From positions 48,371,159 through 48,435,158 of the forward strand of contig OX031059.1 of assembly GCA_943736015.1 (NCBI GenBank): DNA of 64,000 nt, in the 5' to 3' direction. Origin of the DNA: Tridacna crocea (lineage: Eukaryota; Mollusca; Bivalvia; Cardiida; Cardiidae). Of this stretch, positions 25,023-48,164 are shown piece by piece (position 1 is the stretch's first letter; every line of letters begins with the position of its first letter). Below the pieces are notes generated by a model, which had not been told where the DNA came from, did no database searches, and was given only the letters and a program-made list of their open reading frames with translations. The position numbers and the translations under genes were made by a program.

Positions 25023-25522
25023 AGCTAGATAAATTAGAGATTTACAACAGCCCAGGTCGACACTGAAGGGAAACACGGTCTATTTTTACATGAGCAACTC
25101 GCTCATTTACATACCGTTTAGTTTAAACATATTTTATTGCCATACATATGTACATGTCAATAACAGCAATACATAAATACAATTTCTAGTATACATGGAA
25201 TGACAAATGTACATTGGCAAAGGGGTCTGGCCACAAGTTCTCACAACTTAGATTCGGCAATTCCCCTCCTCCAATTACATATTAGGAAACAACAGTCTTA
25301 TGGCAGCTAAAAAAATTTCAAACTTTTCAGTAGTTAGGGATAATAAAGAGAAACAGATAATGAAAAATCTGAACATCAAAGACTAATGTACTAGACAACA
25401 TCAGAGTGATAAAGATTATAGATATATTGTATATTATATATTGTCAGCCGGGATTGAGATTGGAGAATTCTGATCAAATGGCGACTCATATAGGATGGGC
25501 TCAAGGAACGTATTATAAACGG

Positions 25523-28500
25523 TCAATCAAACCTTCCTGAGTTTTTAATAAATTCTTGGACAGAATAAACTATTTCAATATTATCATTAAGGCTTAAATT
25601 ATCAGATCCAAACAATAATAAATTTAAGTTTAAAGGGTGATATTTGCGGAGTTTGCGAAATAACATCAATCTTTGATTGGTATATGACAGGCAGTGAAAA
25701 AAATAATGCTCCGCATCTTCAACATAATAGCCACAGTGGCACAAATTACTTTCCGAAATGTGGTTTTTGTGTAAGTCAGATTTCAGGTCGCTGCAATTAT
25801 TTCTTAATCTCGCTTGAAAGACTGAGAATTTGCGATCTCCTACACCAAAGTATTTTGGGACTACAGACACTGGAAATTGACGCAAGATTGATGACTTAAA
25901 CATAGAAAGTGATTGTAGTGATTTTGTTTCCATCGGCAAATTGTTCCATAGAGATATTGCCGACGGAATAAACGACTTCGCAAAGATTTCGGTACGGCGG
26001 GCCAATGTTTCAATATCTAGGGAATTTCGAAGGGAATATACTGTACTATTTCCAACAGTTGATGGAAACAGTTGACATAAAAAGTCTGGAGCTTGACCAT
26101 TGATGATTTTAAACGTTAAAATAAGTTTCTGGTATTTACGTCTGTCGGACAAGCTCAGCCAGCCGATCTCTGTATACAAATTTATAAGAGAAGTGGATCT
26201 CGTAAGTCCTGTAACTATTCTTGCAGCTTCGTTTTGAATTTTTTCAAGAGAATCTCTTTCACTAAAGGTACAGTTATCCCATACAACAGAAGCATACTCA
26301 AGAAGAGGGCGTAAAAATGATATGTAAAGTTGGTTCAAAGAATTTCGGCTTATTTTGAAGTTTACCGCCCTCATCATTCCAAGGATTTTAGAAGCCGACA
26401 CAGTCAATTGCCTTATATGTTCACGCCATTTTCCATTTGCAGAAAGGGTTAAACCTAAGTGTTTATGGTGTTCAACAAAACTTATTTGGACATTATCGAA
26501 GAACAAATTTGGGCTGGGAACGGTTTTTGCAGAAAAGATCATTGCTTCAGTTTTTTGGGGATTGAATGTAACCAGCCACTGCTTTGCCCAGTAAGAAATC
26601 ATTAGTAAGTCATGATTAAGTATACCCTGAATATCTTGAACTGCTGCAGCTGAACAAGCTAATGATGTGTCATCAGCAAATAAACGTGAAATGCTGAGCA
26701 GGTTTTCAGAAATATCATTAACATAAATTAGAAATAGAAGAGGGCCGAGAACTGAGTCTTGTGGAACGCCCGCCTTAACATTCATTAGTTTTGACTTCGC
26801 AGTACCAACAAATACTGCTTGTTGTCTATTTGAAAGATAACTTTTAATCCAATTTAGCAAACAACCATTAATTCCATTTTGTTGCAATTTGAAAAGTAGA
26901 CCCTTATGCCATACTCTATCAAAAGCTTTCGAAATATCACAAAAAACCATACAAGTATTCTGGTTAGAGTCCAGAGAAGAAACAACTTGATGATAGATAT
27001 CAATCAGCTGATGAACAGTAGAATGACCTTTTAGAAAACCTGACTGCTTTTGGTATATTATGTCATTTGAAACAAAGAAATTGTACATATACTTGTAGAC
27101 GCACCGTTCCATTAATTTTCCAACACAACTTAGTAAAGATATAGGACGGTAGTTACTAACGCAAGATTTGTCTCCTATTTTGAACAGTGGCATGATAATA
27201 GACTGTTTCCAACTTTGCGGAAAAGTTTCTTGATCAAGAGATTTATTGAAGATCCTACACAAGGGCTTTGATATACTGTGTTTTGTAGCCTTGAGTAGTT
27301 TATGACTTATTTGATCCGGTCCAATTGCTTTATTTATGTCTAATGTTCCAATAATACTTTCAACATCCGCAACAGAAATTTGAATGGTTGAAAGAGTATT
27401 TAGTGTTTTGTGAACAAAGTTTGGTAAAGTGGCATTTGAGTCATCTAAAGTTGATATGGAAGTAAAATATTCGTTCAGACAATTAGCTTTATCTTCGTCA
27501 GTATAATGAAACGTTTCTAAGTCATTATTCAATGTTTTCAAAACTGGAATCGAATTAATGCTGGTACTGTTGTTGACCAAACTGCGAAGATATTTCCAGT
27601 ACTGTTTTGGATTTTCAAAACGCGATGAGGATAGACGTTCGTCAAGATTACTGTAGTAGCGTTGTTTAGCGTATTTCTTTAGGTTATTTACTTTATTGCG
27701 CATTTTCTTGTATTTTTCCCAATCATTTATACGCTCGGATTTCGTAGCTATAGCCCTTAGTCTGTCTCGTTGTCTACTTGTTCTTCTTATCTCCGAATCG
27801 TACCACGGTCTGTCGTTAGGTCTTATCGTAATTTCTCCAGAAGGAATACACTGGTTCATCAAATTCATTAAAATACGGCTAAAGCGCATACATGCATCAT
27901 TTATGTTAAGGTTGTCTATGAAATCCCAGCACTCATTGTCAATCAATAAATTAAGCTGGTTAAAGTCAGCTCTGTCGAAGTACCATACCTTACGTTTTGA
28001 ACAATGCCTTAGAGGCTGACAGAAATTTAAAACGACTAGAGTTGCTTTGTGATCACTTATTGAACTATCAACATCCAAGGTATCGGAATGAAGGGCATGA
28101 ACAGTGTTAGAAATTAAAATTGGATCAAGAAGAGTTGCAGAATTCTCTGAAATACGGGTAGGTTTTGTGATGACATTAGTAAAATCGTTTAAAGAGATTA
28201 TATGACTTAGGTGATGTTCATTTGGATTTAGGAGGTCCTCGTTAAGATCGCCAAGCAATAATATATGTGGACAACACTCAAGTGCCTTTTCAATATTGAT
28301 ACTTAAATTTTCCCAAAATGCTACAGGTGTACCTGGAGGACGATAAATTGTACATAGCAGAATGACTGTAGATCGACACTTGATTTCAACCCAAATAGAC
28401 TGAATAGCCTCAGATTCTAGGCCAAGCCTTCTTTTTGAAGCATATATATTTGAAACATATACCAAGATTCCACCAGAATGAGATGTAAGGTCGCGCCTAT

Positions 28501-28888
28501 ACATAGTAGAAACATGACTTTCGATCTGTAAGTCGTCATTCTTTACTGTTACATCAAGATGTGTTTCTGTAAAACTTAATACATCAAAATCGGATAAATG
28601 ATCAGCAATATAATTAAGTTTGTGTCTGATGCTGCAAATATTCAAATGCACACAAGACAGAGAGCCATTGTCATCGTGTTGTAAACAAGTAAAGGGACCT
28701 GGATTTAGTTCTATATCTCCCGAAAGGAGAAGTAGTATTGAAGCGAGAAACCAAAGATGAATTCGAAATTTCAAATTAGAGATACAAAAGAATAGAAAAC
28801 ATGTAATCGAACTGAAGGAAGGTTCAAAAAGTTTATTCGTTGTCGAAGAGAACCTCTTGCCAACCCTGCGTGTTTTAACACAGAACAA
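25523..28888 (-). CDS. LINE ORF: 2A leader, AP-like endonuclease and reverse transcriptase
   Basis: This 1121-residue ORF encodes the retrotransposition machinery: target DNA nicking and reverse transcription of the element RNA. A hydrophobic segment (about 28-56) leads into the 2A motif GDIELNPGP (57-65). The endonuclease (about 76-290) has N83, TETHLD (107-112), IYRPPG (181-186), GDLNED (213-218) and SDH (278-280). The RT has KAIGPDQISHKLL (520-532), SNYRPISLLS (578-587), a catalytic-Asp block FCDISKAFDRVW (649-660) and FADD (737-740). A tail CHCGYYVEDAEHYFFHC (1050-1066) suggests a zinc knuckle. D711 replaces the glycine usual in GVPQGSVLGP and may impair activity. The first ATG was chosen since it precedes the leader. 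No ORF1 was recognised. The architecture fits the CR1/L2 group. Confidence 0.95.
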   Translation of the reverse strand: MFCVKTRRVGKRFSSTTNKLFEPSFSSITCFLFFCISNLKFRIHLWFLASILLLLSGDIELNPGPFTCLQHDDNGSLSCVHLNICSIRHKLNYIADHLSDFDVLSFTETHLDVTVKNDDLQIESHVSTMYRRDLTSHSGGILVYVSNIYASKRRLGLESEAIQSIWVEIKCRSTVILLCTIYRPPGTPVAFWENLSINIEKALECCPHILLLGDLNEDLLNPNEHHLSHIISLNDFTNVITKPTRISENSATLLDPILISNTVHALHSDTLDVDSSISDHKATLVVLNFCQPLRHCSKRKVWYFDRADFNQLNLLIDNECWDFIDNLNINDACMRFSRILMNLMNQCIPSGEITIRPNDRPWYDSEIRRTSRQRDRLRAIATKSERINDWEKYKKMRNKVNNLKKYAKQRYYSNLDERLSSSRFENPKQYWKYLRSLVNNSTSINSIPVLKTLNNDLETFHYTDEDKANCLNEYFTSISTLDDSNATLPNFVHKTLNTLSTIQISVADVESIIGTLDINKAIGPDQISHKLLKATKHSISKPLCRIFNKSLDQETFPQSWKQSIIMPLFKIGDKSCVSNYRPISLLSCVGKLMERCVYKYMYNFFVSNDIIYQKQSGFLKGHSTVHQLIDIYHQVVSSLDSNQNTCMVFCDISKAFDRVWHKGLLFKLQQNGINGCLLNWIKSYLSNRQQAVFVGTAKSKLMNVKAGVPQDSVLGPLLFLIYVNDISENLLSISRLFADDTSLACSAAAVQDIQGILNHDLLMISYWAKQWLVTFNPQKTEAMIFSAKTVPSPNLFFDNVQISFVEHHKHLGLTLSANGKWREHIRQLTVSASKILGMMRAVNFKISRNSLNQLYISFLRPLLEYASVVWDNCTFSERDSLEKIQNEAARIVTGLTRSTSLINLYTEIGWLSLSDRRKYQKLILTFKIINGQAPDFLCQLFPSTVGNSTVYSLRNSLDIETLARRTEIFAKSFIPSAISLWNNLPMETKSLQSLSMFKSSILRQFPVSVVPKYFGVGDRKFSVFQARLRNNCSDLKSDLHKNHISESNLCHCGYYVEDAEHYFFHCLSYTNQRLMLFRKLRKYHPLNLNLLLFGSDNLSLNDNIEIVYSVQEFIKNSGRFD
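28694..28717 (-). other. 2A-like ribosome-skipping motif
   Basis: Codons 58-65 of the LINE ORF read DIELNPGP, matching the D-x-E-x-N-P-G-P consensus, with skipping expected between G64 and P65. A hydrophobic stretch lies immediately upstream. 2A-like sequences are known in APE-type non-LTR retrotransposons of invertebrates. Identical motifs occur at 33680-33703, 38662-38685 and 43649-43672. Confidence 0.85.
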
Positions 28889-29628
28889 ACCTATAGCCGC
28901 GCGCCAAATTGCAATAAATGTACCTATGGCGGATCAGTTATATCAAAATCCATAAACAAGTCCGCGCGCGAATATAGGGTCTTGAGCCTACATACAAGTG
29001 TGCCAGACATACACCATCCCCGAATCCCAGCTAACTTTAAAGAACAAACAGAGGAAATGTACAAAAATGTAGAAAAAATAATAAGAATGAAAAAAAGGAG
29101 AACAAAAGATGATTCCAAGAATAAATCCGAATGCATTGAGAGGACTCGTAACGTTTTGGATATGACAGGAACAACGGAATAGTTTACGTAACAAGACCAG
29201 GAAAATAAATTCCAGGAGAAATTGTTGTAAACAATAAAAAAGACATCTTCAAGTTTATGTATAAACAATAACTTAAACTTGTATTAAACGTTTTAGCAGT
29301 AACAGTTGATAAACATCATCAAAGGAGAAGGTACATCATAAGGAAGAGCGATTTTGATTATGAAATAAAATATTTGGCTGAAAAGTCTCAACAGAACTGT
29401 ATGAAGTAGTAAAGGGATATTATTTCTTGATAAAATTGTCATGTTTAGTATACCGTTCAATTATAAATAATTATGGACAGGCTGTACTTAAGAGAGAGAG
29501 AGAGGAGAACGGGCAAAGAGCCTTCAGTTATTTTCCTACCCAAGTAAAGAGTAAACGTAAATTACATGGTAAAATTGTCATACTAAGATTATTAATAGAG
29601 AGCAAGCACAGAGAGAGAGAGAAAGACA

Positions 29629-29643
29629 GGGGGGGGGGGGGGG
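29629..29643. repeat. Poly-G run, length-variable between units
   Basis: 15 G here; 11 in unit 2 (from 34615), 16 in unit 3 (from 39597) and 16 in unit 4 (from 44584). This is the only length difference found between units. Confidence 0.9.
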
Positions 29644-29810
29644 CGGGAATAGGGAGGGGGACGAGCAATCTTGTAATGTGCTTACCTGGTAATAATTTAT
29701 ACTAAACGTACATAATAGGCTTCAATATTATAAAGATTGACATACTATCAATATTGAGGAAAACAAACTATGTGAGTGAGTGGACCGCATATATGTGCGA
29801 AGGTGGGTGT

Positions 29811-29814
29811 GTGC

Positions 29815-29862
<48 letters not shown>

Positions 29863-29876
29863 GAGAGAGAGAGATG
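29811..29876. repeat. (GT)n-(GA)n compound microsatellite
   Basis: A short GTGTGCGTGT... run passes directly into a GA run. It is repeated in each tandem unit at the stated offsets. Short ORFs across it are repeat translations and are not treated as genes. Confidence 0.95.
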
Positions 29877-30319
29877 GCACGCTAAATGTTCATGTAATGT
29901 CTTACAAACCATGTGAGTGTGTGGGGCGCACAATATATTACATCAAAATTGAAGCTTCGCTTCCCGCAGTGATCATGTTTGGTACAACCTGAAGTAATGA
30001 TTCTTTTTACCCAATGTTATATACATATATACAAATAACAGCCAGATATATATACTATATACTGTTTCAGTAAGTACAATATATACACATCTGGTACATA
30101 TATGCATGTATACAAATAACAGCCCAATATATACAAAATACTGATTCAGTAAATACAAAGTATAAGCATAATAGTCCAGGATTTCGTGGTCAACGAAAAG
30201 GACATTTTAACCAACAAAAAACAAATTAATTGTCTCTATTATCCCATATAAAGGAGAAGTATGCACGAAAATACATACCGGAAATTTATATACAAACGAA
30301 GCTTCAAACATAGCATCCG

Positions 30320-30622
30320 AAGTTCTAGACATTATGGAAAATAATTAAATGTTTGTTATGTAATGGAATTTAATAGTCATAAGTCACGTGCAAGTCACTT
30401 AACATTCCCACAATGCTTTTTTTGATTTTGGCGGGAAATCTAAAAATAGCTTAAGAGGCTACGTAGCCTTTTAAGGGAATACCACCAAAGAAATGTTTTT
30501 TTTTTTGTAATTTTATGATTTTTAATTACTGATGATTTGTATTGTTTTTTCATATAAATTTCAGTGACATATATATTTTTTAATTTGGTGGGATGTGAAA
30601 ATTCTAAATACCCACCTTTAAG
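30320..30622 (-). mobile_element. Family-G MITE, right part of a split copy
   Basis: The reverse complement of about 20541-20835: it runs from 'TTCTAGACATTATGGAAAA' through 'TTTTGGCGGGAAATCT' to 'AATACCCACCTTTA'. With 24904-25022 it reconstitutes a full-length MITE. Further copies come only from the tandem duplication. Confidence 0.75.
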
Positions 30623-30646
30623 TCTTCCCTCGATATTGTAAACCAG

Positions 30647-30861
30647 TTAATCCTTTGCCACACAGTCAAGAGTTTAAATGAACGCTTATGAAAACATTGT
30701 GGAAAAAGGAGAAAATGCTGGTAACCAGCATTTTCTCCTTTTTCCACAATGTTTTCTATTTAGCCAAAGAGGAATTTCAGTTATTTAAGTCACAATTATT
30801 TTGTCGTCTTCTAGAGCTATCAATTCGGAAAAATCTAGCATTTTGCCGCGTGATAGTTTAA
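30647..30861 (+). mobile_element. TTAA-A MITE, complete (in every tandem unit)
   Basis: TTAA at both ends. The hairpin is perfect, with matched changes in both arms (GTGGAAAAAGGAG and CTCCTTTTTCCAC). Copies lie at 35629-35843, 40616-40830 and 45603-45817. Confidence 0.85.
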
Positions 30862-31554
30862 AGGGGTAAATTAAATCTTGAGTGCAAGAAATAAATTTTT
30901 CTTTATAAGATACAAATTTGTTTGGTATTTCATTTTGTTTTTAACATTTCGCCAATCGTATCAAGACGGCCAGTGCCCCTATTCATGTCTTCCATAAGAT
31001 ATTTTGTACTTTGTGAGACCACATTCGGCAAACCTCGGGTGCTTGGAGCCATTATGTCTCTCGCCTGTAACTGGTGGATTGATATGTCAGACCTGGAAAT
31101 ACACCGGTTTATCCGGTTCTGAAATTTGTAAGGGTCTTCTTACAATAGAAAACTTGAGTTTCAATTTTCTATCAAAATCTTTCTAGATATATTTCAATTG
31201 ACAAACAGTTCGTACATTCATTTTTTAAAGTGGTTTATAAATTCCGATTGAAGTTTTCTCCAACAAATAGACAGATGTGAATAACTTCTTCGAGGTTGTT
31301 TATGTCGTTGGCTATATATAGAATCACGTGATTCTCATTTCAAAATGAAAATCTTCTTGGTAAGGACGAGGTTAGATGTGGGTACGGAATCGGCAGTGTT
31401 GTGACGAATGTGTAAGACCACGCTTGCTTTTCATCATAAACATTGCAACAGAGCTTACAGTAAGTACGATAGATAATTCCGCCTAAATGACTTAGATTGA
31501 TTATATAGGGTTTATTTCATCAGCTTGTGGTTAATATGGGGAAATATTTGCCGA

Positions 31555-31625
31555 AAAAGGCAAAGGTATGCGAAAATAACGAGTCCCGTAAGGTACGAGT
31601 TATTTTCGCGGACCTTTGCCTTTTG
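31555..31625. repeat. Hairpin with about 26-bp arms
   Basis: 'AAAAGGCAAAGGTATGCGAA' and 'TTCGCGGACCTTTGCCTTTT' pair around GAGTCCCGTAAGGTACGA. One or two mismatches. It recurs in units 2-4. Confidence 0.8.
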
Positions 31626-31989
31626 AGGTATGCGCTTTGCGCTCCCGGTGTTTCGTGAAACTCTTGCCCTTGTCGTTTTTATACGGAAAGACCTCGTACT
31701 TGGTCGATATCCTATCTTACCTCAGTACTTTGTGTTTTTTTTTGTACAGAATGTTTCTTTGGCTCTTTGTTCAGTGTATCGCGTAAAAGGTAGGCCGCAG
31801 ATTACCATGGTCTGTGCATGGATGTAATGCAAATTACGCTGAGAAATTAACGACTGATTATTAGACATTCGGTCAACCAAGGTTCAGGACGTTCTCTATG
31901 GGCGTTTTCAACCTTTTATATTGAACGAAGAGTGACTCAAACCTGCTGTTATAATTCAAAGGTTAGTGGAACCTTTTTGTTTTATTTCA

Positions 31990-32420
31990 AAACGTATTCA
32001 CCATTCTTCTCATACGTTCTAGAAAGGAACACAACTTTTGATAGCCAAACTAAATAATTTGGCCAAAATATTTTTTTGAGAATAAGACTTAGGATAATAA
32101 ACATGTCCACTTCAGTAAATACTTCGAATCACTTAGAAAGATACTTTAACAGTCCGACTTTATGTTATGAGTGCAACTTTTAATAGTGTTTTTGCAATAA
32201 AAACTAAAGTCAGACTCTATATATCGTGCGTCCGTCTTCACCAACTGTTCTTAAGAACATTCTTTGTCTTATTTTGCAAGACTTTCCAAGTTTGAAAGAA
32301 CACAACTTCTGATAAGCTAAACCAAATGGTTTAGCAAATTAGATGGTGTGTTACTATCATACTTGGAAAAATCTGGAGAACAAGACTAAGAATGTTCTTG
32401 AGAATGGTTGGTGAATATGG
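31990..32420. mobile_element. Two family-E foldback copies
   Basis: A degenerate copy lies at about 31990-32105 ('GTATTCACCATTCTTCTC', 'ACACAACTTTTGATAGCCAA'). A fuller copy at 32235-32420 has TTCACCAACTGTTCTTAAG at the left and 'AGAATGGTTGGTGAATATGG' at the right as inverted ends. It is related to 53062-53238. Confidence 0.7.
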
Positions 32421-32724
32421 AGCCTGATCAGTTTATAACTTGCAGCCTCATCTTTGACCTACAAATTGTTGTAAGCTGCCTTCAAATTAGAAAGCGATAG
32501 CTATGAAATTGCTAGGCACATAAATTGGGATGAAACTGACCAAGAATGTGGTGTCCAGTATTTTGTGAGATAGCCTTGCAAATAACCGGGCTTAAAAATG
32601 CAAATTTTTGGCCGGTTCTATACAATTGAAATTGTCTTTTGATATCATTCTGTGCTGAAGTCAAAACAATCCACGCAAAGTGTGCAATGGGGGCACGAAG
32701 GGGTAGGGGTGGCGTTAGGAGACT

Positions 32725-32903
32725 TTTGTAAACATTGTCGAATGCTGAAAAAGGAAAACATTCTGGTATCCAATTTTCCCCATCCCAAATTCCACAATTT
32801 TTTCTACCTGTTCAAATACTGTCTTTTCAGCCACATCTTTTCTGTCATCTGAAACTGCTATCACTTTTGACGAGATTAGTTTTATCCATTTGTAAAGAAT
32901 TAA
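32725..32903 (+). mobile_element. Degraded TTAA-A MITE
   Basis: 'GTAAACATTGTCGAATGCTG', 'ATTCCACAATTTTTTCTACC' and the right end 'TTTGTAAAGAATTAA' keep the family order. The hairpin no longer pairs well. Confidence 0.6.
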
Positions 32904-33874
32904 TGTGCAGTTCCCTGGCTTACCTTAATCAATAAATTAAGCTGGTTAAAGTCAGCTCTGTCGAAGTACCATACCTTACGTTTTGAACAATGCCTTAGAG
33001 GCTGACAGAAATTTAAAACGACTAGAGTTGCTTTGTGATCACTTATTGAACTATCAACATCCAAGGTATCGGAATGAAGGGCATGAACAGTGTTAGAAAT
33101 TAAAATTGGATCAAGAAGAGTTGCAGAATTCTCTGAAATACGGGTAGGTTTTGTGATGACATTAGTAAAATCGTTTAAAGAGATTATATGACTTAGGTGA
33201 TGTTCATTTGGATTTAGGAGGTCCTCGTTAAGATCGCCAAGCAATAATATATGTGGACAACACTCAAGTGCCTTTTCAATATTGATACTTAAATTTTCCC
33301 AAAATGCTACAGGTGTACCTGGAGGACGATAAATTGTACATAGCAGAATGACTGTAGATCGATACTTGATTTCAACCCAAATAGACTGAATAGCCTCAGA
33401 TTCTAGGCCAAGCCTTCTTTTTGAAGCATATATATTTGAAACATATACCAAGATTCCACCAGAATGAGATGTAAGGTCGCGCCTATACATAGTAGAAACA
33501 TGACTTTCGATCTGTAAGTCGTCATTCTTTACTGTTACATCAAGATGTGTTTCTGTAAAACTTAATACATCAAAATCGGATAAATGATCAGCAATATAAT
33601 TAAGTTTGTGTCTGATGCTGCAAATATTCAAATGCACACAAGACAGAGAGCCATTGTCATCGTGTTGTAAACAAGTAAAGGGACCTGGATTTAGTTCTAT
33701 ATCTCCCGAAAGGAGAAGTAGTATTGAAGCGAGAAACCAAAGATGAATTCGAAATTTCAAATTAGAGATACAAAAGAATAGAAAACATGTAATCGAACTG
33801 AAGGAAGGTTCAAAAAGTTTATTCGTTGTCGAAGAGAACCTCTTGCCAACCCTGCGTGTTTTAACACAGAACAA
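32900..33874 (-). CDS. Truncated LINE ORF, endonuclease only (unit 2)
   Basis: The 324-codon ORF is identical to residues 1-316 of the intact LINE ORF except C171Y. At the unit junction it runs into flanking DNA and gains eight residues (KVSQGTAH) before TAA. It keeps the hydrophobic leader, the 2A motif and the endonuclease motifs up to SDH but has no RT. The junction reads ATTAAG-GTAAGC on the minus strand, a strong splice-donor-like sequence. Whether it is transcribed is unknown. It arose by tandem duplication, so it is not a 5'-complete independent insertion. Confidence 0.9.
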   Translation of the reverse strand: MFCVKTRRVGKRFSSTTNKLFEPSFSSITCFLFFCISNLKFRIHLWFLASILLLLSGDIELNPGPFTCLQHDDNGSLSCVHLNICSIRHKLNYIADHLSDFDVLSFTETHLDVTVKNDDLQIESHVSTMYRRDLTSHSGGILVYVSNIYASKRRLGLESEAIQSIWVEIKYRSTVILLCTIYRPPGTPVAFWENLSINIEKALECCPHILLLGDLNEDLLNPNEHHLSHIISLNDFTNVITKPTRISENSATLLDPILISNTVHALHSDTLDVDSSISDHKATLVVLNFCQPLRHCSKRKVWYFDRADFNQLNLLIKVSQGTAH

Positions 33875-34796
33875 ACCTATAGCCGCGCGCCAAATTGCAA
33901 TAAATGTACCTATGGCGGATCAGTTATATCAAAATCCATAAACAAGTCCGCGCGCGAATATAGGGTCTTGAGCCTACATACAAGTGTGCCAGACATACAC
34001 CATCCCCGAATCCCAGCTAACTTTAAAGAACAAACAGAGGAAATGTACAAAAATGTAGAAAAAATAATAAGAATGAAAAAAAGGAGAACAAAAGATGATT
34101 CCAAGAATAAATCCGAATGCATTGAGAGGACTCGTAACGTTTTGGATATGACAGGAACAACGGAATAGTTTACGTAACAAGACCAGGAAAATAAATTCCA
34201 GGAGAAATTGTTGTAAACAATAAAAAAGACATCTTCAAGTTTATGTATAAACAATAACTTAAACTTGTATTAAACGTTTTAGCAGTAACAGTTGATAAAC
34301 ATCATCAAAGGAGAAGGTACATCATAAGGAAGAGCGATTTTGATTATGAAATAAAATATTTGGCTGAAAAGTCTCAACAGAACTGTATGAAGTAGTAAAG
34401 GGATATTATTTCTTGATAAAATTGTCATGTTTAGTATACCGTTCAATTATAAATAATTATGGACAGGCTGTACTTAAGAGAGAGAGAGAGGAGAACGGGC
34501 AAAGAGCCTTCAGTTATTTTCCTACCCAAGTAAAGAGTAAACGTAAATTACATGGTAAAATTGTCATACTAAGATTATTAATAGAGAGCAAGCACAGAGA
34601 GAGAGAGAAAGACAGGGGGGGGGGGCGGGAATAGGGAGGGGGACGAGCAATCTTGTAATGTGCTTACCTGGTAATAATTTATACTAAACGTACATAATAG
34701 GCTTCAATATTATAAAGATTGACATACTATCAATATTGAGGAAAACAAACTATGTGAGTGAGTGGACCGCATATATGTGCGAAGGTGGGTGTGTGC

Positions 34797-34844
<48 letters not shown>

Positions 34845-37800
34845 GAGAGAGAGAGATGGCACGCTAAATGTTCATGTAATGTCTTACAAACCATGTGAGT
34901 GTGTGGGGCGCACAATATATTACATCAAAATTGAAGCTTCGCTTCCCGCAGTGATCATGTTTGGTACAACCTGAAGTAATGATTCTTTTTACCCAATGTT
35001 ATATACATATATACAAATAACAGCCAGATATATATACTATATACTGTTTCAGTAAGTACAATATATACACATCTGGTACATATATGCATGTATACAAATA
35101 ACAGCCCAATATATACAAAATACTGATTCAGTAAATACAAAGTATAAGCATAATAGTCCAGGATTTCGTGGTCAACGAAAAGGACATTTTAACCAACAAA
35201 AAACAAATTAATTGTCTCTATTATCCCATATAAAGGAGAAGTATGCACGAAAATACATACCGGAAATTTATATACAAACGAAGCTTCAAACATAGCATCC
35301 GAAGTTCTAGACATTATGGAAAATAATTAAATGTTTGTTATGTAATGGAATTTAATAGTCATAAGTCACGTGCAAGTCACTTAACATTCCCACAATGCTT
35401 TTTTTGATTTTGGCGGGAAATCTAAAAATAGCTTAAGAGGCTACGTAGCCTTTTAAGGGAAAACCACCAAAGAAATGTTTTTTTTTTTGTAATTTTATGA
35501 TTTTTAATTACTGATGATTTGTATTGTTTTTTCATATAAATTTCAGTGACATATATATTTTTTAATTTGGTGGGATGTGAAAATTCTAAATACCCACCTT
35601 TAAGTCTTCCCTCGATATTGTAAACCAGTTAATCCTTTGCCACACAGTCAAGAGTTTAAATGAACGCTTATGAAAACATTGTGGAAAAAGGAGAAAATGC
35701 TGGTAACCAGCATTTTCTCCTTTTTCCACAATGTTTTCTATTTAGCCAAAGAGGAATTTCAGTTATTTAAGTCACAATTATTTTGTCGTCTTCTAGAGCT
35801 ATCAATTCGGAAAAATCTAGCATTTTGCCGCGTGATAGTTTAAAGGGGTAAATTAAATCTTGAGTGCAAGAAATAAATTTTTCTTTATAAGATACAAATT
35901 TGTTTGGTATTTCATTTTGTTTTTAACATTTCGCCAATCGTATCAAGACGGCCAGTGCCCCTATTCATGTCTTCCATAAGATATTTTGTACTTTGTGAGA
36001 CCACATTCGGCAAACCTCGGGTGCTTGGAGCCATTATGTCTCTCGCCTGTAACTGGTGGATTGATATGTCAGACCTGGAAATACACCGGTTTATCCGGTT
36101 CTGAAATTTGTAAGGGTCTTCTTACAATAGAAAACTTGAGTTTCAATTTTCTATCAAAATCTTTCTAGATATATTTCAATTGACAAACAGTTCGTACATT
36201 CATTTTTTAAAGTGGTTTATAAATTCCGATTGAAGTTTTCTCCAACAAATAGACAGATGTGAATAACTTCTTCGAGGTTGTTTATGTCGTTGGCTATATA
36301 TAGAATCACGTGATTCTCATTTCAAAATGAAAATCTTCTTGGTAAGGACGAGGTTAGATGTGGGTACGGAATCGGCAGTGTTGTGACGAATGTGTAAGAC
36401 CACGCTTGCTTTTCATCATAAACATTGCAACAGAGCTTACAGTAAGTACGATAGATAATTCCGCCTAAATGACTTAGATTGATTATATAGGGTTTATTTC
36501 ATCAGCTTGTGGTTAATATGGGGAAATATTTGCCGAAAAAGGCAAAGGTATGCGAAAATAACGAGTCCCGTAAGGTACGAGTTATTTTCGCGGACCTTTG
36601 CCTTTTGAGGTATGCGCTTTGCGCTCCCGGTGTTTCGTGAAACTCTTGCCCTTGTCGTTTTTATACGGAAAGACCTCGTACTTGGTCGATATCCTATCTT
36701 ACCTCAGTACTTTGTGTTTTTTTTTGTACAGAATGTTTCTTTGGCTCTTTGTTCAGTGTATCGCGTAAAAGGTAGGCCGCAGATTACCATGGTCTGTGCA
36801 TGGATGTAATGCAAATTACGCTGAGAAATTAACGACTGATTATTAGACATTCGGTCAACCAAGGTTCAGGACGTTCTCTATGGGCGTTTTCAACCTTTTA
36901 TATTGAACGAAGAGTGACTCAAACCTGCTGTTATAATTCAAAGGTTAGTGGAACCTTTTTGTTTTATTTCAAAACGTATTCACCATTCTTCTCATACGTT
37001 CTAGAAAGGAACACAACTTTTGATAGCCAAACTAAATAATTTGGCCAAAATATTTTTTTGAGAATAAGACTTAGGATAATAAACATGTCCACTTCAGTAA
37101 ATACTTCGAATCACTTAGAAAGATACTTTAACAGTCCGACTTTATGTTATGAGTGCAACTTTTAATAGTGTTTTTGCAATAAAAACTAAAGTCAGACTCT
37201 ATATATCGTGCGTCCGTCTTCACCAACTGTTCTTAAGAACATTCTTTGTCTTATTTTGCAAGACTTTCCAAGTTTGAAAGAACACAACTTCTGATAAGCT
37301 AAACCAAATGGTTTAGCAAATTAGATGGTGTGTTACTATCATACTTGGAAAAATCTGGAGAACAAGACTAAGAATGTTCTTGAGAATGGTTGGTGAATAT
37401 GGAGCCTGATCAGTTTATAACTTGCAGCCTCATCTTTGACCTACAAATTGTTGTAAGCTGCCTTCAAATTAGAAAGCGATAGCTATGAAATTGCTAGGCA
37501 CATAAATTGGGATGAAACTGACCAAGAATGTGGTGTCCAGTATTTTGTGAGATAGCCTTGCAAATAACCGGGCTTAAAAATGCAAATTTTTGGCCGGTTC
37601 TATACAATTGAAATTGTCTTTTGATATCATTCTGTGCTGAAGTCAAAACAATCCACGCAAAGTGTGCAATGGGGGCACGAAGGGGTAGGGGTGGCGTTAG
37701 GAGACTTTTGTAAACATTGTCGAATGCTGAAAAAGGAAAACATTCTGGTATCCAATTTTCCCCATCCCAAATTCCACAATTTTTTCTACCTGTTCAAATA

Positions 37801-37907
37801 CTGTCTTTTCAGCCACATCTTTTCTGTCATCTGAAACTGCTATCACTTTTGACGAGATTAGTTTTATCCATTTGTAAAGAATTAATGTGCAGTTCCCTGG
37901 CTTACCT
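32927..37907. repeat. Tandem unit 2
   Basis: 4981 bp. Same content as unit 1, with T at 33363, an 11-G run and a private A at 35462. Confidence 0.95.
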
Positions 37908-38856
37908 TAATCAATAAATTAAGCTGGTTAAAGTCAGCTCTGTCGAAGTACCATACCTTACGTTTTGAACAATGCCTTAGAGGCTGACAGAAATTTAAAA
38001 CGACTAGAGTTGCTTTGTGATCACTTATTGAACTATCAACATCCAAGGTATCGGAATGAAGGGCATGAACAGTGTTAGAAATTAAAATTGGATCAAGAAG
38101 AGTTGCAGAATTCTCTGAAATACGGGTAGGTTTTGTGATGACATTAGTAAAATCGTTTAAAGAGATTATATGACTTAGGTGATGTTCATTTGGATTTAGG
38201 AGGTCCTCGTTAAGATCGCCAAGCAATAATATATGTGGACAACACTCAAGTGCCTTTTCAATATTGATACTTAAATTTTCCCAAAATGCTACAGGTGTAC
38301 CTGGAGGACGATAAATTGTACATAGCAGAATGACTGTAGATCGATACTTGATTTCAACCCAAATAGACTGAATAGCCTCAGATTCTAGGCCAAGCCTTCT
38401 TTTTGAAGCATATATATTTGAAACATATACCAAGATTCCACCAGAATGAGATGTAAGGTCGCGCCTATACATAGTAGAAACATGACTTTCGATCTGTAAG
38501 TCGTCATTCTTTACTGTTACATCAAGATGTGTTTCTGTAAAACTTAATACATCAAAATCGGATAAATGATCAGCAATATAATTAAGTTTGTGTCTGATGC
38601 TGCAAATATTCAAATGCACACAAGACAGAGAGCCATTGTCATCGTGTTGTAAACAAGTAAAGGGACCTGGATTTAGTTCTATATCTCCCGAAAGGAGAAG
38701 TAGTATTGAAGCGAGAAACCAAAGATGAATTCGAAATTTCAAATTAGAGATACAAAAGAATAGAAAACATGTAATCGAACTGAAGGAAGGTTCAAAAAGT
38801 TTATTCGTTGTCGAAGAGAACCTCTTGCCAACCCTGCGTGTTTTAACACAGAACAA
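37882..38856 (-). CDS. Truncated LINE ORF, endonuclease only (unit 3)
   Basis: The protein is identical to that at 32900-33874, including Y171 and the eight-residue junction tail. The leader, the 2A motif and the endonuclease motifs TETHLD, GDLNED and SDH are intact; RT is absent. The perfect repetition of the chimeric tail shows that the same breakpoint was copied, not created anew. Confidence 0.9.
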   Translation of the reverse strand: MFCVKTRRVGKRFSSTTNKLFEPSFSSITCFLFFCISNLKFRIHLWFLASILLLLSGDIELNPGPFTCLQHDDNGSLSCVHLNICSIRHKLNYIADHLSDFDVLSFTETHLDVTVKNDDLQIESHVSTMYRRDLTSHSGGILVYVSNIYASKRRLGLESEAIQSIWVEIKYRSTVILLCTIYRPPGTPVAFWENLSINIEKALECCPHILLLGDLNEDLLNPNEHHLSHIISLNDFTNVITKPTRISENSATLLDPILISNTVHALHSDTLDVDSSISDHKATLVVLNFCQPLRHCSKRKVWYFDRADFNQLNLLIKVSQGTAH

Positions 38857-39783
38857 ACCTATAGCCGCGCGCCAAATTGCAATAAATGTACCTATGGCGG
38901 ATCAGTTATATCAAAATCCATAAACAAGTCCGCGCGCGAATATAGGGTCTTGAGCCTACATACAAGTGTGCCAGACATACACCATCCCCGAATCCCAGCT
39001 AACTTTAAAGAACAAACAGAGGAAATGTACAAAAATGTAGAAAAAATAATAAGAATGAAAAAAAGGAGAACAAAAGATGATTCCAAGAATAAATCCGAAT
39101 GCATTGAGAGGACTCGTAACGTTTTGGATATGACAGGAACAACGGAATAGTTTACGTAACAAGACCAGGAAAATAAATTCCAGGAGAAATTGTTGTAAAC
39201 AATAAAAAAGACATCTTCAAGTTTATGTATAAACAATAACTTAAACTTGTATTAAACGTTTTAGCAGTAACAGTTGATAAACATCATCAAAGGAGAAGGT
39301 ACATCATAAGGAAGAGCGATTTTGATTATGAAATAAAATATTTGGCTGAAAAGTCTCAACAGAACTGTATGAAGTAGTAAAGGGATATTATTTCTTGATA
39401 AAATTGTCATGTTTAGTATACCGTTCAATTATAAATAATTATGGACAGGCTGTACTTAAGAGAGAGAGAGAGGAGAACGGGCAAAGAGCCTTCAGTTATT
39501 TTCCTACCCAAGTAAAGAGTAAACGTAAATTACATGGTAAAATTGTCATACTAAGATTATTAATAGAGAGCAAGCACAGAGAGAGAGAGAAAGACAGGGG
39601 GGGGGGGGGGGGCGGGAATAGGGAGGGGGACGAGCAATCTTGTAATGTGCTTACCTGGTAATAATTTATACTAAACGTACATAATAGGCTTCAATATTAT
39701 AAAGATTGACATACTATCAATATTGAGGAAAACAAACTATGTGAGTGAGTGGACCGCATATATGTGCGAAGGTGGGTGTGTGC

Positions 39784-39831
<48 letters not shown>

Positions 39832-42800
39832 GAGAGAGAGAGATGGCACGCTAAATGTTCATGTAATGTCTTACAAACCATGTGAGTGTGTGGGGCGCAC
39901 AATATATTACATCAAAATTGAAGCTTCGCTTCCCGCAGTGATCATGTTTGGTACAACCTGAAGTAATGATTCTTTTTACCCAATGTTATATACATATATA
40001 CAAATAACAGCCAGATATATATACTATATACTGTTTCAGTAAGTACAATATATACACATCTGGTACATATATGCATGTATACAAATAACAGCCCAATATA
40101 TACAAAATACTGATTCAGTAAATACAAAGTATAAGCATAATAGTCCAGGATTTCGTGGTCAACGAAAAGGACATTTTAACCAACAAAAAACAAATTAATT
40201 GTCTCTATTATCCCATATAAAGGAGAAGTATGCACGAAAATACATACCGGAAATTTATATACAAACGAAGCTTCAAACATAGCATCCGAAGTTCTAGACA
40301 TTATGGAAAATAATTAAATGTTTGTTATGTAATGGAATTTAATAGTCATAAGTCACGTGCAAGTCACTTAACATTCCCACAATGCTTTTTTTGATTTTGG
40401 CGGGAAATCTAAAAATAGCTTAAGAGGCTACGTAGCCTTTTAAGGGAATACCACCAAAGAAATGTTTTTTTTTTTGTAATTTTATGATTTTTAATTACTG
40501 ATGATTTGTATTGTTTTTTCATATAAATTTCAGTGACATATATATTTTTTAATTTGGTGGGATGTGAAAATTCTAAATACCCACCTTTAAGTCTTCCCTC
40601 GATATTGTAAACCAGTTAATCCTTTGCCACACAGTCAAGAGTTTAAATGAACGCTTATGAAAACATTGTGGAAAAAGGAGAAAATGCTGGTAACCAGCAT
40701 TTTCTCCTTTTTCCACAATGTTTTCTATTTAGCCAAAGAGGAATTTCAGTTATTTAAGTCACAATTATTTTGTCGTCTTCTAGAGCTATCAATTCGGAAA
40801 AATCTAGCATTTTGCCGCGTGATAGTTTAAAGGGGTAAATTAAATCTTGAGTGCAAGAAATAAATTTTTCTTTATAAGATACAAATTTGTTTGGTATTTC
40901 ATTTTGTTTTTAACATTTCGCCAATCGTATCAAGACGGCCAGTGCCCCTATTCATGTCTTCCATAAGATATTTTGTACTTTGTGAGACCACATTCGGCAA
41001 ACCTCGGGTGCTTGGAGCCATTATGTCTCTCGCCTGTAACTGGTGGATTGATATGTCAGACCTGGAAATACACCGGTTTATCCGGTTCTGAAATTTGTAA
41101 GGGTCTTCTTACAATAGAAAACTTGAGTTTCAATTTTCTATCAAAATCTTTCTAGATATATTTCAATTGACAAACAGTTCGTACATTCATTTTTTAAAGT
41201 GGTTTATAAATTCCGATTGAAGTTTTCTCCAACAAATAGACAGATGTGAATAACTTCTTCGAGGTTGTTTATGTCGTTGGCTATATATAGAATCACGTGA
41301 TTCTCATTTCAAAATGAAAATCTTCTTGGTAAGGACGAGGTTAGATGTGGGTACGGAATCGGCCGTGTTGTGACGAATGTGTAAGACCACGCTTGCTTTT
41401 CATCATAAACATTGCAACAGAGCTTACAGTAAGTACGATAGATAATTCCGCCTAAATGACTTAGATTGATTATATAGGGTTTATTTCATCAGCTTGTGGT
41501 TAATATGGGGAAATATTTGCCGAAAAAGGCAAAGGTATGCGAAAATAACGAGTCCCGTAAGGTACGAGTTATTTTCGCGGACCTTTGCCTTTTGAGGTAT
41601 GCGCTTTGCGCTCCCGGTGTTTCGTGAAACTCTTGCCCTTGTCGTTTTTATACGGAAAGACCTCGTACTTGGTCGATATCCTATCTTACCTCAGTACTTT
41701 GTGTTTTTTTTTGTACAGAATGTTTCTTTGGCTCTTTGTTCAGTGTATCGCGTAAAAGGTAGGCCGCAGATTACCATGGTCTGTGCATGGATGTAATGCA
41801 AATTACGCTGAGAAATTAACGACTGATTATTAGACATTCGGTCAACCAAGGTTCAGGACGTTCTCTATGGGCGTTTTCAACCTTTTATATTGAACGAAGA
41901 GTGACTCAAACCTGCTGTTATAATTCAAAGGTTAGTGGAACCTTTTTGTTTTATTTCAAAACGTATTCACCATTCTTCTCATACGTTCTAGAAAGGAACA
42001 CAACTTTTGATAGCCAAACTAAATAATTTGGCCAAAATATTTTTTTGAGAATAAGACTTAGGATAATAAACATGTCCACTTCAGTAAATACTTCGAATCA
42101 CTTAGAAAGATACTTTAACAGTCCGACTTTATGTTATGAGTGCAACTTTTAATAGTGTTTTTGCAATAAAAACTAAAGTCAGACTCTATATATCGTGCGT
42201 CCGTCTTCACCAACTGTTCTTAAGAACATTCTTTGTCTTATTTTGCAAGACTTTCCAAGTTTGAAAGAACACAACTTCTGATAAGCTAAACCAAATGGTT
42301 TAGCAAATTAGATGGTGTGTTACTATCATACTTGGAAAAATCTGGAGAACAAGACTAAGAATGTTCTTGAGAATGGTTGGTGAATATGGAGCCTGATCAG
42401 TTTATAACTTGCAGCCTCATCTTTGACCTACAAATTGTTGTAAGCTGCCTTCAAATTAGAAAGCGATAGCTATGAAATTGCTAGGCACATAAATTGGGAT
42501 GAAACTGACCAAGAATGTGGTGTCCAGTATTTTGTGAGATAGCCTTGCAAATAACCGGGCTTAAAAATGCAAATTTTTGGCCGGTTCTATACAATTGAAA
42601 TTGTCTTTTGATATCATTCTGTGCTGAAGTCAAAACAATCCACGCAAAGTGTGCAATGGGGGCACGAAGGGGTAGGGGTGGCGTTAGGAGACTTTTGTAA
42701 ACATTGTCGAATGCTGAAAAAGGAAAACATTCTGGTATCCAATTTTCCCCATCCCAAATTCCACAATTTTTTCTACCTGTTCAAATACTGTCTTTTCAGC

Positions 42801-42894
42801 CACATCTTTTCTGTCATCTGAAACTGCTATCACTTTTGACGAGATTAGTTTTATCCATTTGTAAAGAATTAATGTGCAGTTCCCTGGCTTACCT
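37909..42894. repeat. Tandem unit 3
   Basis: 4986 bp, with a 16-G run and C at 41364, both shared with unit 4. Confidence 0.95.
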
Positions 42895-43843
42895 TAATCA
42901 ATAAATTAAGCTGGTTAAAGTCAGCTCTGTCGAAGTACCATACCTTACGTTTTGAACAATGCCTTAGAGGCTGACAGAAATTTAAAACGACTAGAGTTGC
43001 TTTGTGATCACTTATTGAACTATCAACATCCAAGGTATCGGAATGAAGGGCATGAACAGTGTTAGAAATTAAAATTGGATCAAGAAGAGTTGCAGAATTC
43101 TCTGAAATACGGGTAGGTTTTGTGATGACATTAGTAAAATCGTTTAAAGAGATTATATGACTTAGGTGATGTTCATTTGGATTTAGGAGGTCCTCGTTAA
43201 GATCGCCAAGCAATAATATATGTGGACAACACTCAAGTGCCTTTTCAATATTGATACTTAAATTTTCCCAAAATGCTACAGGTGTACCTGGAGGACGATA
43301 AATTGTACATAGCAGAATGACTGTAGATCGATACTTGATTTCAACCCAAATAGACTGAATAGCCTCAGATTCTAGGCCAAGCCTTCTTTTTGAAGCATAT
43401 ATATTTGAAACATATACCAAGATTCCACCAGAATGAGATGTAAGGTCGCGCCTATACATAGTAGAAACATGACTTTCGATCTGTAAGTCGTCATTCTTTA
43501 CTGTTACATCAAGATGTGTTTCTGTAAAACTTAATACATCAAAATCGGATAAATGATCAGCAATATAATTAAGTTTGTGTCTGATGCTGCAAATATTCAA
43601 ATGCACACAAGACAGAGAGCCATTGTCATCGTGTTGTAAACAAGTAAAGGGACCTGGATTTAGTTCTATATCTCCCGAAAGGAGAAGTAGTATTGAAGCG
43701 AGAAACCAAAGATGAATTCGAAATTTCAAATTAGAGATACAAAAGAATAGAAAACATGTAATCGAACTGAAGGAAGGTTCAAAAAGTTTATTCGTTGTCG
43801 AAGAGAACCTCTTGCCAACCCTGCGTGTTTTAACACAGAACAA
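42869..43843 (-). CDS. Truncated LINE ORF, endonuclease only (unit 4)
   Basis: The third identical 324-codon copy, with the same leader, 2A motif, endonuclease and junction tail. Unit 4 is the last unit, so this ORF is the rightmost; right of 47881 unique flanking DNA begins. Confidence 0.9.
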   Translation of the reverse strand: MFCVKTRRVGKRFSSTTNKLFEPSFSSITCFLFFCISNLKFRIHLWFLASILLLLSGDIELNPGPFTCLQHDDNGSLSCVHLNICSIRHKLNYIADHLSDFDVLSFTETHLDVTVKNDDLQIESHVSTMYRRDLTSHSGGILVYVSNIYASKRRLGLESEAIQSIWVEIKYRSTVILLCTIYRPPGTPVAFWENLSINIEKALECCPHILLLGDLNEDLLNPNEHHLSHIISLNDFTNVITKPTRISENSATLLDPILISNTVHALHSDTLDVDSSISDHKATLVVLNFCQPLRHCSKRKVWYFDRADFNQLNLLIKVSQGTAH

Positions 43844-44770
43844 ACCTATAGCCGCGCGCCAAATTGCAATAAATGTACCTATGGCGGATCAGTTATATCA
43901 AAATCCATAAACAAGTCCGCGCGCGAATATAGGGTCTTGAGCCTACATACAAGTGTGCCAGACATACACCATCCCCGAATCCCAGCTAACTTTAAAGAAC
44001 AAACAGAGGAAATGTACAAAAATGTAGAAAAAATAATAAGAATGAAAAAAAGGAGAACAAAAGATGATTCCAAGAATAAATCCGAATGCATTGAGAGGAC
44101 TCGTAACGTTTTGGATATGACAGGAACAACGGAATAGTTTACGTAACAAGACCAGGAAAATAAATTCCAGGAGAAATTGTTGTAAACAATAAAAAAGACA
44201 TCTTCAAGTTTATGTATAAACAATAACTTAAACTTGTATTAAACGTTTTAGCAGTAACAGTTGATAAACATCATCAAAGGAGAAGGTACATCATAAGGAA
44301 GAGCGATTTTGATTATGAAATAAAATATTTGGCTGAAAAGTCTCAACAGAACTGTATGAAGTAGTAAAGGGATATTATTTCTTGATAAAATTGTCATGTT
44401 TAGTATACCGTTCAATTATAAATAATTATGGACAGGCTGTACTTAAGAGAGAGAGAGAGGAGAACGGGCAAAGAGCCTTCAGTTATTTTCCTACCCAAGT
44501 AAAGAGTAAACGTAAATTACATGGTAAAATTGTCATACTAAGATTATTAATAGAGAGCAAGCACAGAGAGAGAGAGAAAGACAGGGGGGGGGGGGGGGGC
44601 GGGAATAGGGAGGGGGACGAGCAATCTTGTAATGTGCTTACCTGGTAATAATTTATACTAAACGTACATAATAGGCTTCAATATTATAAAGATTGACATA
44701 CTATCAATATTGAGGAAAACAAACTATGTGAGTGAGTGGACCGCATATATGTGCGAAGGTGGGTGTGTGC

Positions 44771-44818
<48 letters not shown>

Positions 44819-47800
44819 GAGAGAGAGAGATGGCACGCTAAATGTTCATGTAATGTCTTACAAACCATGTGAGTGTGTGGGGCGCACAATATATTACATC
44901 AAAATTGAAGCTTCGCTTCCCGCAGTGATCATGTTTGGTACAACCTGAAGTAATGATTCTTTTTACCCAATGTTATATACATATATACAAATAACAGCCA
45001 GATATATATACTATATACTGTTTCAGTAAGTACAATATATACACATCTGGTACATATATGCATGTATACAAATAACAGCCCAATATATACAAAATACTGA
45101 TTCAGTAAATACAAAGTATAAGCATAATAGTCCAGGATTTCGTGGTCAACGAAAAGGACATTTTAACCAACAAAAAACAAATTAATTGTCTCTATTATCC
45201 CATATAAAGGAGAAGTATGCACGAAAATACATACCGGAAATTTATATACAAACGAAGCTTCAAACATAGCATCCGAAGTTCTAGACATTATGGAAAATAA
45301 TTAAATGTTTGTTATGTAATGGAATTTAATAGTCATAAGTCACGTGCAAGTCACTTAACATTCCCACAATGCTTTTTTTGATTTTGGCGGGAAATCTAAA
45401 AATAGCTTAAGAGGCTACGTAGCCTTTTAAGGGAATACCACCAAAGAAATGTTTTTTTTTTTGTAATTTTATGATTTTTAATTACTGATGATTTGTATTG
45501 TTTTTTCATATAAATTTCAGTGACATATATATTTTTTAATTTGGTGGGATGTGAAAATTCTAAATACCCACCTTTAAGTCTTCCCTCGATATTGTAAACC
45601 AGTTAATCCTTTGCCACACAGTCAAGAGTTTAAATGAACGCTTATGAAAACATTGTGGAAAAAGGAGAAAATGCTGGTAACCAGCATTTTCTCCTTTTTC
45701 CACAATGTTTTCTATTTAGCCAAAGAGGAATTTCAGTTATTTAAGTCACAATTATTTTGTCGTCTTCTAGAGCTATCAATTCGGAAAAATCTAGCATTTT
45801 GCCGCGTGATAGTTTAAAGGGGTAAATTAAATCTTGAGTGCAAGAAATAAATTTTTCTTTATAAGATACAAATTTGTTTGGTATTTCATTTTGTTTTTAA
45901 CATTTCGCCAATCGTATCAAGACGGCCAGTGCCCCTATTCATGTCTTCCATAAGATATTTTGTACTTTGTGAGACCACATTCGGCAAACCTCGGGTGCTT
46001 GGAGCCATTATGTCTCTCGCCTGTAACTGGTGGATTGATATGTCAGACCTGGAAATACACCGGTTTATCCGGTTCTGAAATTTGTAAGGGTCTTCTTACA
46101 ATAGAAAACTTGAGTTTCAATTTTCTATCAAAATCTTTCTAGATATATTTCAATTGACAAACAGTTCGTACATTCATTTTTTAAAGTGGTTTATAAATTC
46201 CGATTGAAGTTTTCTCCAACAAATAGACAGATGTGAATAACTTCTTCGAGGTTGTTTATGTCGTTGGCTATATATAGAATCACGTGATTCTCATTTCAAA
46301 ATGAAAATCTTCTTGGTAAGGACGAGGTTAGATGTGGGTACGGAATCGGCCGTGTTGTGACGAATGTGTAAGACCACGCTTGCTTTTCATCATAAACATT
46401 GCAACAGAGCTTACAGTAAGTACGATAGATAATTCCGCCTAAATGACTTAGATTGATTATATAGGGTTTATTTCATCAGCTTGTGGTTAATATGGGGAAA
46501 TATTTGCCGAAAAAGGCAAAGGTATGCGAAAATAACGAGTCCCGTAAGGTACGAGTTATTTTCGCGGACCTTTGCCTTTTGAGGTATGCGCTTTGCGCTC
46601 CCGGTGTTTCGTGAAACTCTTGCCCTTGTCGTTTTTATACGGAAAGACCTCGTACTTGGTCGATATCCTATCTTACCTCAGTACTTTGTGTTTTTTTTTG
46701 TACAGAATGTTTCTTTGGCTCTTTGTTCAGTGTATCGCGTAAAAGGTAGGCCGCAGATTACCATGGTCTGTGCATGGATGTAATGCAAATTACGCTGAGA
46801 AATTAACGACTGATTATTAGACATTCGGTCAACCAAGGTTCAGGACGTTCTCTATGGGCGTTTTCAACCTTTTATATTGAACGAAGAGTGACTCAAACCT
46901 GCTGTTATAATTCAAAGGTTAGTGGAACCTTTTTGTTTTATTTCAAAACGTATTCACCATTCTTCTCATACGTTCTAGAAAGGAACACAACTTTTGATAG
47001 CCAAACTAAATAATTTGGCCAAAATATTTTTTTGAGAATAAGACTTAGGATAATAAACATGTCCACTTCAGTAAATACTTCGAATCACTTAGAAAGATAC
47101 TTTAACAGTCCGACTTTATGTTATGAGTGCAACTTTTAATAGTGTTTTTGCAATAAAAACTAAAGTCAGACTCTATATATCGTGCGTCCGTCTTCACCAA
47201 CTGTTCTTAAGAACATTCTTTGTCTTATTTTGCAAGACTTTCCAAGTTTGAAAGAACACAACTTCTGATAAGCTAAACCAAATGGTTTAGCAAATTAGAT
47301 GGTGTGTTACTATCATACTTGGAAAAATCTGGAGAACAAGACTAAGAATGTTCTTGAGAATGGTTGGTGAATATGGAGCCTGATCAGTTTATAACTTGCA
47401 GCCTCATCTTTGACCTACAAATTGTTGTAAGCTGCCTTCAAATTAGAAAGCGATAGCTATGAAATTGCTAGGCACATAAATTGGGATGAAACTGACCAAG
47501 AATGTGGTGTCCAGTATTTTGTGAGATAGCCTTGCAAATAACCGGGCTTAAAAATGCAAATTTTTGGCCGGTTCTATACAATTGAAATTGTCTTTTGATA
47601 TCATTCTGTGCTGAAGTCAAAACAATCCACGCAAAGTGTGCAATGGGGGCACGAAGGGGTAGGGGTGGCGTTAGGAGACTTTTGTAAACATTGTCGAATG
47701 CTGAAAAAGGAAAACATTCTGGTATCCAATTTTCCCCATCCCAAATTCCACAATTTTTTCTACCTGTTCAAATACTGTCTTTTCAGCCACATCTTTTCTG

Positions 47801-47881
47801 TCATCTGAAACTGCTATCACTTTTGACGAGATTAGTTTTATCCATTTGTAAAGAATTAATGTGCAGTTCCCTGGCTTACCT
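42896..47881. repeat. Tandem unit 4 (right boundary unit)
   Basis: 4986 bp. At its right end TTACCT continues directly into CGGAGGCTGTCAGACGCC, the original flank, so the ancestral right breakpoint is preserved here. Confidence 0.95.
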
Positions 47882-48164
47882 CGGAGGCTGTCAGACGCCG
47901 TATCTCAACTCTAGTCGTATCTCAACTCTAGTTGTCTGTGTGATAATTCGTGATGATTTACGGCAACAAATGAAATACAAACTAAGAACACCCACAGTAG
48001 ATGTTCAAGTTTTATTGCCTTGCAATTGAAACTAGATTTACTGGGTTTTATTTGATTAAAATTTTGTGCATAAAATATATCCGTGTCATATATATTGTAA
48101 AGTAGGGAAGTAAATCATCAGGAGCACTCATCCCAGGTTGTAGGCCTATACAGCTTGCAACGCA
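47882..48164. other. Right flank of the array, no gene recognised
   Basis: It contains a 17-bp direct repeat (CGTATCTCAACTCTAGT near 47896 and 47913). On the minus strand, CCGAG-GTAAGCC at the unit edge resembles a splice donor. Confidence 0.4.

Follow-up and report, generated by a model that had tools for sequence, protein, structure and literature searches.

A probable recent tandem segmental duplication of part of a LINE and its flanking DNA in Tridacna crocea

Described kilobase arrays and the array in the window

Kilobase arrays that arose from a single-copy locus have been described at CUP1 in yeast. That study ascribes their formation to unequal non-homologous end joining in which little sequence, or none, was shared (PMC4232551). 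Its introduction states that unequal crossovers change the repeat number in existing arrays, and its section 17 gives one extra A/T pair at the Type 1 junctions (PMC4232551). In maize, a retrotransposon fragment forms the repeat unit of CRM1TR and CRM4TR; an excerpt of the original report proposes illegitimate recombination or atypical end joining, with growth by non-allelic gene conversion in the authors' proposal (PMC3648361). Somatic tandem duplications on the kilobase scale, with a mode near 11 kb, are described in a portion of a study on a transmissible cancer of the soft-shell clam (PMC10663159). Adjacent parallel breakpoints are named as the hallmark of breakage-replication/fusion in a passage of PMC12807874.

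The window, by which we mean the whole stretch of 64,000 bp that was analysed (C4:48371159-48435158), comes from a genome of 1,048,827,098 bases (1.05 Gb) in 31 contigs. Self-comparison and multiple alignment of the window showed four head-to-tail units at 27941-47881, which bears out the coordinates and variants of the four near-identical tandem units noted in an earlier reading of the letters (hereafter the sequence-only reading). On the forward strand, unit 1 runs from 27941 to 32926 (4986 bp including the junction T), unit 2 from 32927 to 37908 (4982 bp), unit 3 from 37909 to 42895 (4987 bp) and unit 4 from 42896 to 47881 (4986 bp, without the junction T). Each unit starts inside the ORF of a LINE, after residue 316, and ends 2.66 kb past the LINE 5' end; it is made up of the LINE 5' 2.33 kb and 2.66 kb of flank. 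The sequence-only reading had the block begin at LINE codon 316, which is correct when numbering starts at the TTG, but its distance of 3.6 kb past the ORF has to be replaced by 4.04 kb past the TTG (from 28888 to 32926), of which just 2.66 kb lies past the true LINE 5' end (30270). Chance cannot be the source of a four-copy 5-kb match at such identity.

In a genome-wide search with the unit, the best 40 of 17,090 first-look candidates were scored, and repeat counts are therefore lower bounds. Four units were listed, all at one place on C4, and no other contig contained a full unit among the matches listed. Satellite DNA, with its many copies and usually several sites, does not describe four units listed at a single place (counts again as lower bounds). 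What was found is contiguous local DNA copied head to tail, the same junction recurring each time, as in a tandem segmental duplication. Among the 45 matches listed for the LINE piece that was searched, none outside the array was repeated head to tail.

The outer flank of the unit (30849-32926) had no long match outside the array among the matches listed, only short and weak repeat relatives, which indicates that the array sits at its native locus. Two short stretches of this flank are repeat-like: approximately 31505-31628 has a match of 77-89% in the DNA next to L018, another LINE copy, and 32231-32421 is near-palindromic with weak relatives on C18, C6, C16 and C7 (72-80%). Another near-palindromic short repeat is located at 30690-30758. 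Both near-palindromic repeats have their equivalents in the other units and relatives elsewhere in the genome, and are presumably MITE-like elements.

Like yeast CUP1, this locus has kilobase units and a junction with little or no homology, and it carries one extra A/T pair, as does one CUP1 type in the section cited above (PMC4232551). Unlike at CUP1, no selected gene is evident, the unit is part LINE and part flank, the organism is an animal, and there is one junction type in one assembly. A retrotransposon fragment within the repeat unit is also found in CRM1TR and CRM4TR. However, in the excerpt cited these consist of LTR-UTR pieces and form centromeric or pericentromeric arrays of many islands (PMC3648361), whereas the array here has four units, is LINE-derived and is for one half non-element flank. 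The kilobase-scale tandem arrangement is shared with the clam-cancer duplications, although those are somatic and, in the portion cited, have the larger mode given above (PMC10663159). Structural changes of this kind are known; in the present case the history can be read.

The LINE and its insertion site

The LINE is a full-length APE-endonuclease/RT non-LTR retrotransposon at 25117-30271 on the reverse strand, with its 5' end at the right (30270/30271). Five other genomic copies (L010-L014) align to exactly 30270 and then stop, which places the LINE 5' end there; L015-L019 end earlier. The element is flanked by a target-site duplication, TACATACCG, of which the left copy lies at 25108-25116 and the right copy, the same nine bases, at 30272-30280. 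When joined with one copy of this 9-bp duplication, the LINE flanks match six paralogous LINE-free repeats at 92-95.5% (five over 262-266 of 266 bp, one over 179 bp), and the overlap is the 9-bp duplication itself. The identical nine bases and the LINE-free paralogous repeats place the LINE 3' end at 25117. A full-length LINE was thus inserted into an older dispersed repeat, and only its 5' 2.33 kb was later duplicated.

The LINE ORF (25523-28888, reverse strand) is 1121 aa long from a TTG, with an endonuclease domain at residues 83-280 and RT at 577-790. Endonuclease and RT domains in one ORF, together with the target-site duplication, identify the element as an APE-type LINE. Near the start of the ORF, ahead of both domains, residues 57-65 read GDIELNPGP, which is 2A-like. 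Odon et al. reportedly described 2A-like sequences in APE-type non-LTR retrotransposons in 2013. The motif fits D[V/I]ExNPGP and lies upstream of endonuclease and RT, as in the 2A-bearing APE-type elements presented in part of PMC4981915; in contrast to those, it is located here in an ORF without an upstream ATG. The first ATG is not met before residue 129, hence none precedes the 2A-like motif, and the region of the ORF start is nearly invariant in 13 other copies, with scattered single-base changes (over at most 91 bp, some copies being partly covered). Translation of the LINE may therefore start at a codon other than AUG, or be preceded by splicing. No relatives of the LINE were confirmed in viral contigs, and no known RNA families or tRNAs were found within the window at the thresholds used.

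For the comparison of LINE copies, the best 40 of 108 candidates were scored, giving 45 matches listed, 30 of them with loci. It covered 26 other physical copies, among which L013 and L014 form a local duplicate pair and are not independent. Seven substitutions in 27941-30270 (at 28422, 28636, 29118, 29385, 29716, 29886 and 30044) set the window LINE apart from every compared copy that covers the site, each site being covered by 6 to 18 copies. A further site, the eighth, falls in a purine tract (29623) and was set aside, as was every site at which the window LINE agrees with some of the other copies. All seven substitutions are common to the four units, and one later change is present in the same stretch (28377, unit 1). 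Seven LINE-specific changes common to all units against one later change indicate that insertion and divergence of the LINE preceded the separation of the present units. The first join could be older than it appears if gene conversion took place among the units.

Two other local duplications turned up unsought among the loci examined. On C6 (14.49/14.52 Mb), the same LINE and its flanks are duplicated 33 kb apart, at 99.1% over the 4.3 kb compared; these are the copies L013 and L014. The second pair, L060 and L063 on C8 (7.01/7.03 Mb), lies 19.6 kb apart, at 99.7% over 3.4 kb. Similar local, near-identical duplications thus exist elsewhere in the genome. The mitochondrial contig (C31, L066) has a length of 29,009 bp, which is large for animal mitochondrial DNA, and its COX1 is open under the invertebrate mitochondrial code.

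Junctions and differences between the units

All three internal junctions, at 32920-32934, 37902-37916 and 42889-42903 on the forward strand, have the sequence TTACCT-T-AATCAATA, and no difference between them was seen within 200 bp to either side. This uniformity points to a single join at the founding of the array. The native left break is GTC/AATCAATA and the native right break TTACCT/CGGAGG. In present coordinates the breakpoints are 27940/27941, inside the LINE ORF, and 47881/47882, in the flank. Of the LINE/flank breakpoint across which the sequence-only reading had the units built, the LINE half stands; the other break is in flanking DNA that has no match across it elsewhere. An edge of another repeat at this position was rejected, since no sequence outside the array matched across the right break, and non-array matches start no nearer than approximately 385 bp to the right of it, near 48266.

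At the break, 0 bp are shared in register and one T is added. All 34 rows of the comparison (24 physical copies) have C as the LINE base to the left of the break, which shows that the junction T is not from the LINE; none of the 24 other physical LINE copies has a T there. Homology between the breaks was not in excess: local alignment of the 120 bp around each break gave a score of 15, while 2000 random window pairs averaged 16 and 61% of them reached 15. No unusual folding was seen at either break (150-nt folds with RNA parameters, compared with 200 random places each). No or very short homology and a small insertion are what end joining allows. With breakpoint homology absent, folding unremarkable and a C beside the break, end joining is favoured for the first junction and microhomology-driven replication is not indicated. 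On both points the sequence-only reading is upheld: it had described one untemplated T without shared bases, which is now seen at all three junctions, and had suggested end joining for the first duplication.

A search with the 15-mer of the junction returned three occurrences in the array and two elsewhere (C6 and C7), with approximately 13 expected from the base composition of the window and 0 for the reversed-pattern control. The two outside matches share nothing substantial beyond the pattern and are unrelated sequence. A perfect 17-bp tandem duplication is located at 47899-47932, 17 bp beyond the right edge of the array; it may have been left by the repair of the same break, or have arisen by chance.

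Multiple alignment agreed with the sequence-only reading that three substitutions and one G-run are the sole differences between the units, the junction T apart. In unit-1 coordinates, 28377 is C in unit 1 and T in units 2-4, 30480 is A in unit 2 (position 35462 of the window) and T in units 1, 3 and 4, and 31395 is A in units 1 and 2 and C in units 3 and 4 (41364 in unit 3). The G-run has a length of 15, 11, 16 and 16 in units 1 to 4, respectively. The junction T after unit 3 is all that distinguishes units 3 and 4, and this pair was the last to separate. Seven other tracts (five GA/GT/AG tracts and two T-runs) do not vary in length among the four units, which shows that the units separated very recently or were homogenised.

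Copies outside the array were used to polarise these differences. At 28377 a T is present in 29 of 29 rows, which represent 19 of 19 other physical LINE copies compared; the T is thus ancestral and the C of unit 1 derived and private. Likewise, six of six paralogues of the host repeat have T at 30480, which indicates that the A of unit 2 is derived and private. The G-run and the adjoining purine tract vary widely among other LINE copies, with no clear ancestral state. For the flank around 31395, no paralogue was found among the matches listed in the genome-wide unit search. This is the sole site that groups units, and it gives an unrooted split of units 1 and 2 from units 3 and 4. The sequence-only reading had derived a stepwise amplification from unit 1 to units 3 and 4. 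That order is rejected, because the T common to units 2-4 is ancestral and 31395 has no outgroup; the pattern consists of two private changes and one unrooted split, by which growth from unit 1 to units 3 and 4 is not shown.

Origin of the array and alternative explanations

We consider it likely that a recent tandem segmental duplication produced the array at its native locus, by end joining after LINE insertion, and that units were then gained and homogenised through homology. The sequence itself shows the anatomy, a single type of junction, breaks that share no homology, and a LINE that preceded the present units; the breakage and the joining of ends are inferred. The LINE had first inserted into the older dispersed repeat. 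Two double-strand breaks, one in the LINE ORF (27940/27941) and one in the flank (47881/47882), would have occurred later, probably on sister chromatids or homologues, and their ends would have been joined with one added T to give two copies. Homology between these copies would then have allowed unequal exchange or gene conversion, which raised the number to four and kept the units near-identical. Later amplification was also proposed in the sequence-only reading, by unequal exchange or replication slippage; a homology-based process is supported for it, and we infer unequal exchange as the growth step. On the letters alone, unequal crossing-over would look the same as excision of a circle and its reinsertion.

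There is good support for the junction itself and less for the exact copy number, with one assembly. A real junction with four copies as a miscount of the assembly (over- or under-expansion, or two mixed haplotypes) is rather unlikely, though it ranks first among the alternatives; it is compatible with the end-joining mechanism, and its odds overlap those of the tandem duplication described above. Units 3 and 4 are identical, and three units can be told from four only by a read that reaches from 36377, where the last marker of unit 2 lies, to 47882 in the right flank, a span of at least 11,506 bp. The sequence-only reading took private variants as an argument against an artefact. This argument is weak: both private substitutions are singletons, consensus error could account for one changed base in one unit, and a G-run 15 bases long is unreliable. 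The total of three substitutions over 20 kb lies near the range of residual consensus error. Against a miscount, modern long reads often exceed 11.5 kb, and no second copy of the locus was present on other contigs among the best 40 of 17,090 candidates scored.

Circular DNA, end-joined with the same T junction, could have been multiplied as a rolling circle and recombined into the locus, so that several units were gained in one step. The same junctions and near-identical units would be expected, and the few differences fit a single recent burst. However, this requires more steps, and no insertion was seen elsewhere, the junction 15-mer occurring outside the array only in the two unrelated sequences. 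We regard this route as improbable. More doubtful still, and very improbable, is that the whole array is false, through a chimeric read or an assembly loop. The very high identity and the one assembly would suit this, but one exact non-homologous junction is present three times, the 31395 variant is common to two of the four units, and haplotype duplication would not create a new junction.

In units 2-4 the duplicated ORF stops after residue 316 (TTG numbering) plus eight new residues. The truncated ORFs, at 32900-33874, 37882-38856 and 42869-43843 on the reverse strand, are the same: 324 aa with a complete endonuclease domain, no RT and the new tail KVSQGTAH. In unit 1, the C at 28377 replaces Tyr by Cys within the endonuclease domain of the array's only full-length ORF; the other units retain the Tyr. 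Since the 324-residue frame is open and its endonuclease domain complete, the extra units could possibly yield an expressed endonuclease fragment. That units 2-4 are a cassette array, each with the LINE 5' leader and a 324-residue frame for the 2A-like peptide and endonuclease without RT, is a long shot. If expressed, such a locus would supply a free-standing LINE endonuclease able to nick DNA. This might compete with the full LINE protein, or begin a host-captured nuclease under copy-number selection. The array is probably without special function, and the explanation by tandem duplication requires none.

An origin by LINE retrotransposition or template jumping, to which the one breakpoint inside the LINE might point, is practically out of the question: the LINE 3' end and the target-site duplication are present only at the one full LINE and units 2-4 lack that 3' end, the new junctions lie inside the ORF without poly-A or target-site duplication, and every unit contains 2.66 kb of non-LINE flank.

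The variants of such an array need polarising with outside copies before repeats are ordered. If copy number varies among individuals, the array would make a convenient marker, but no broad question depends on it. As a tandem duplication, it would be a clean and young example of the birth of a kilobase tandem array in an animal genome, in which the founding junction, the site where the LINE inserted and relatives of the repeat that received it can be read together.
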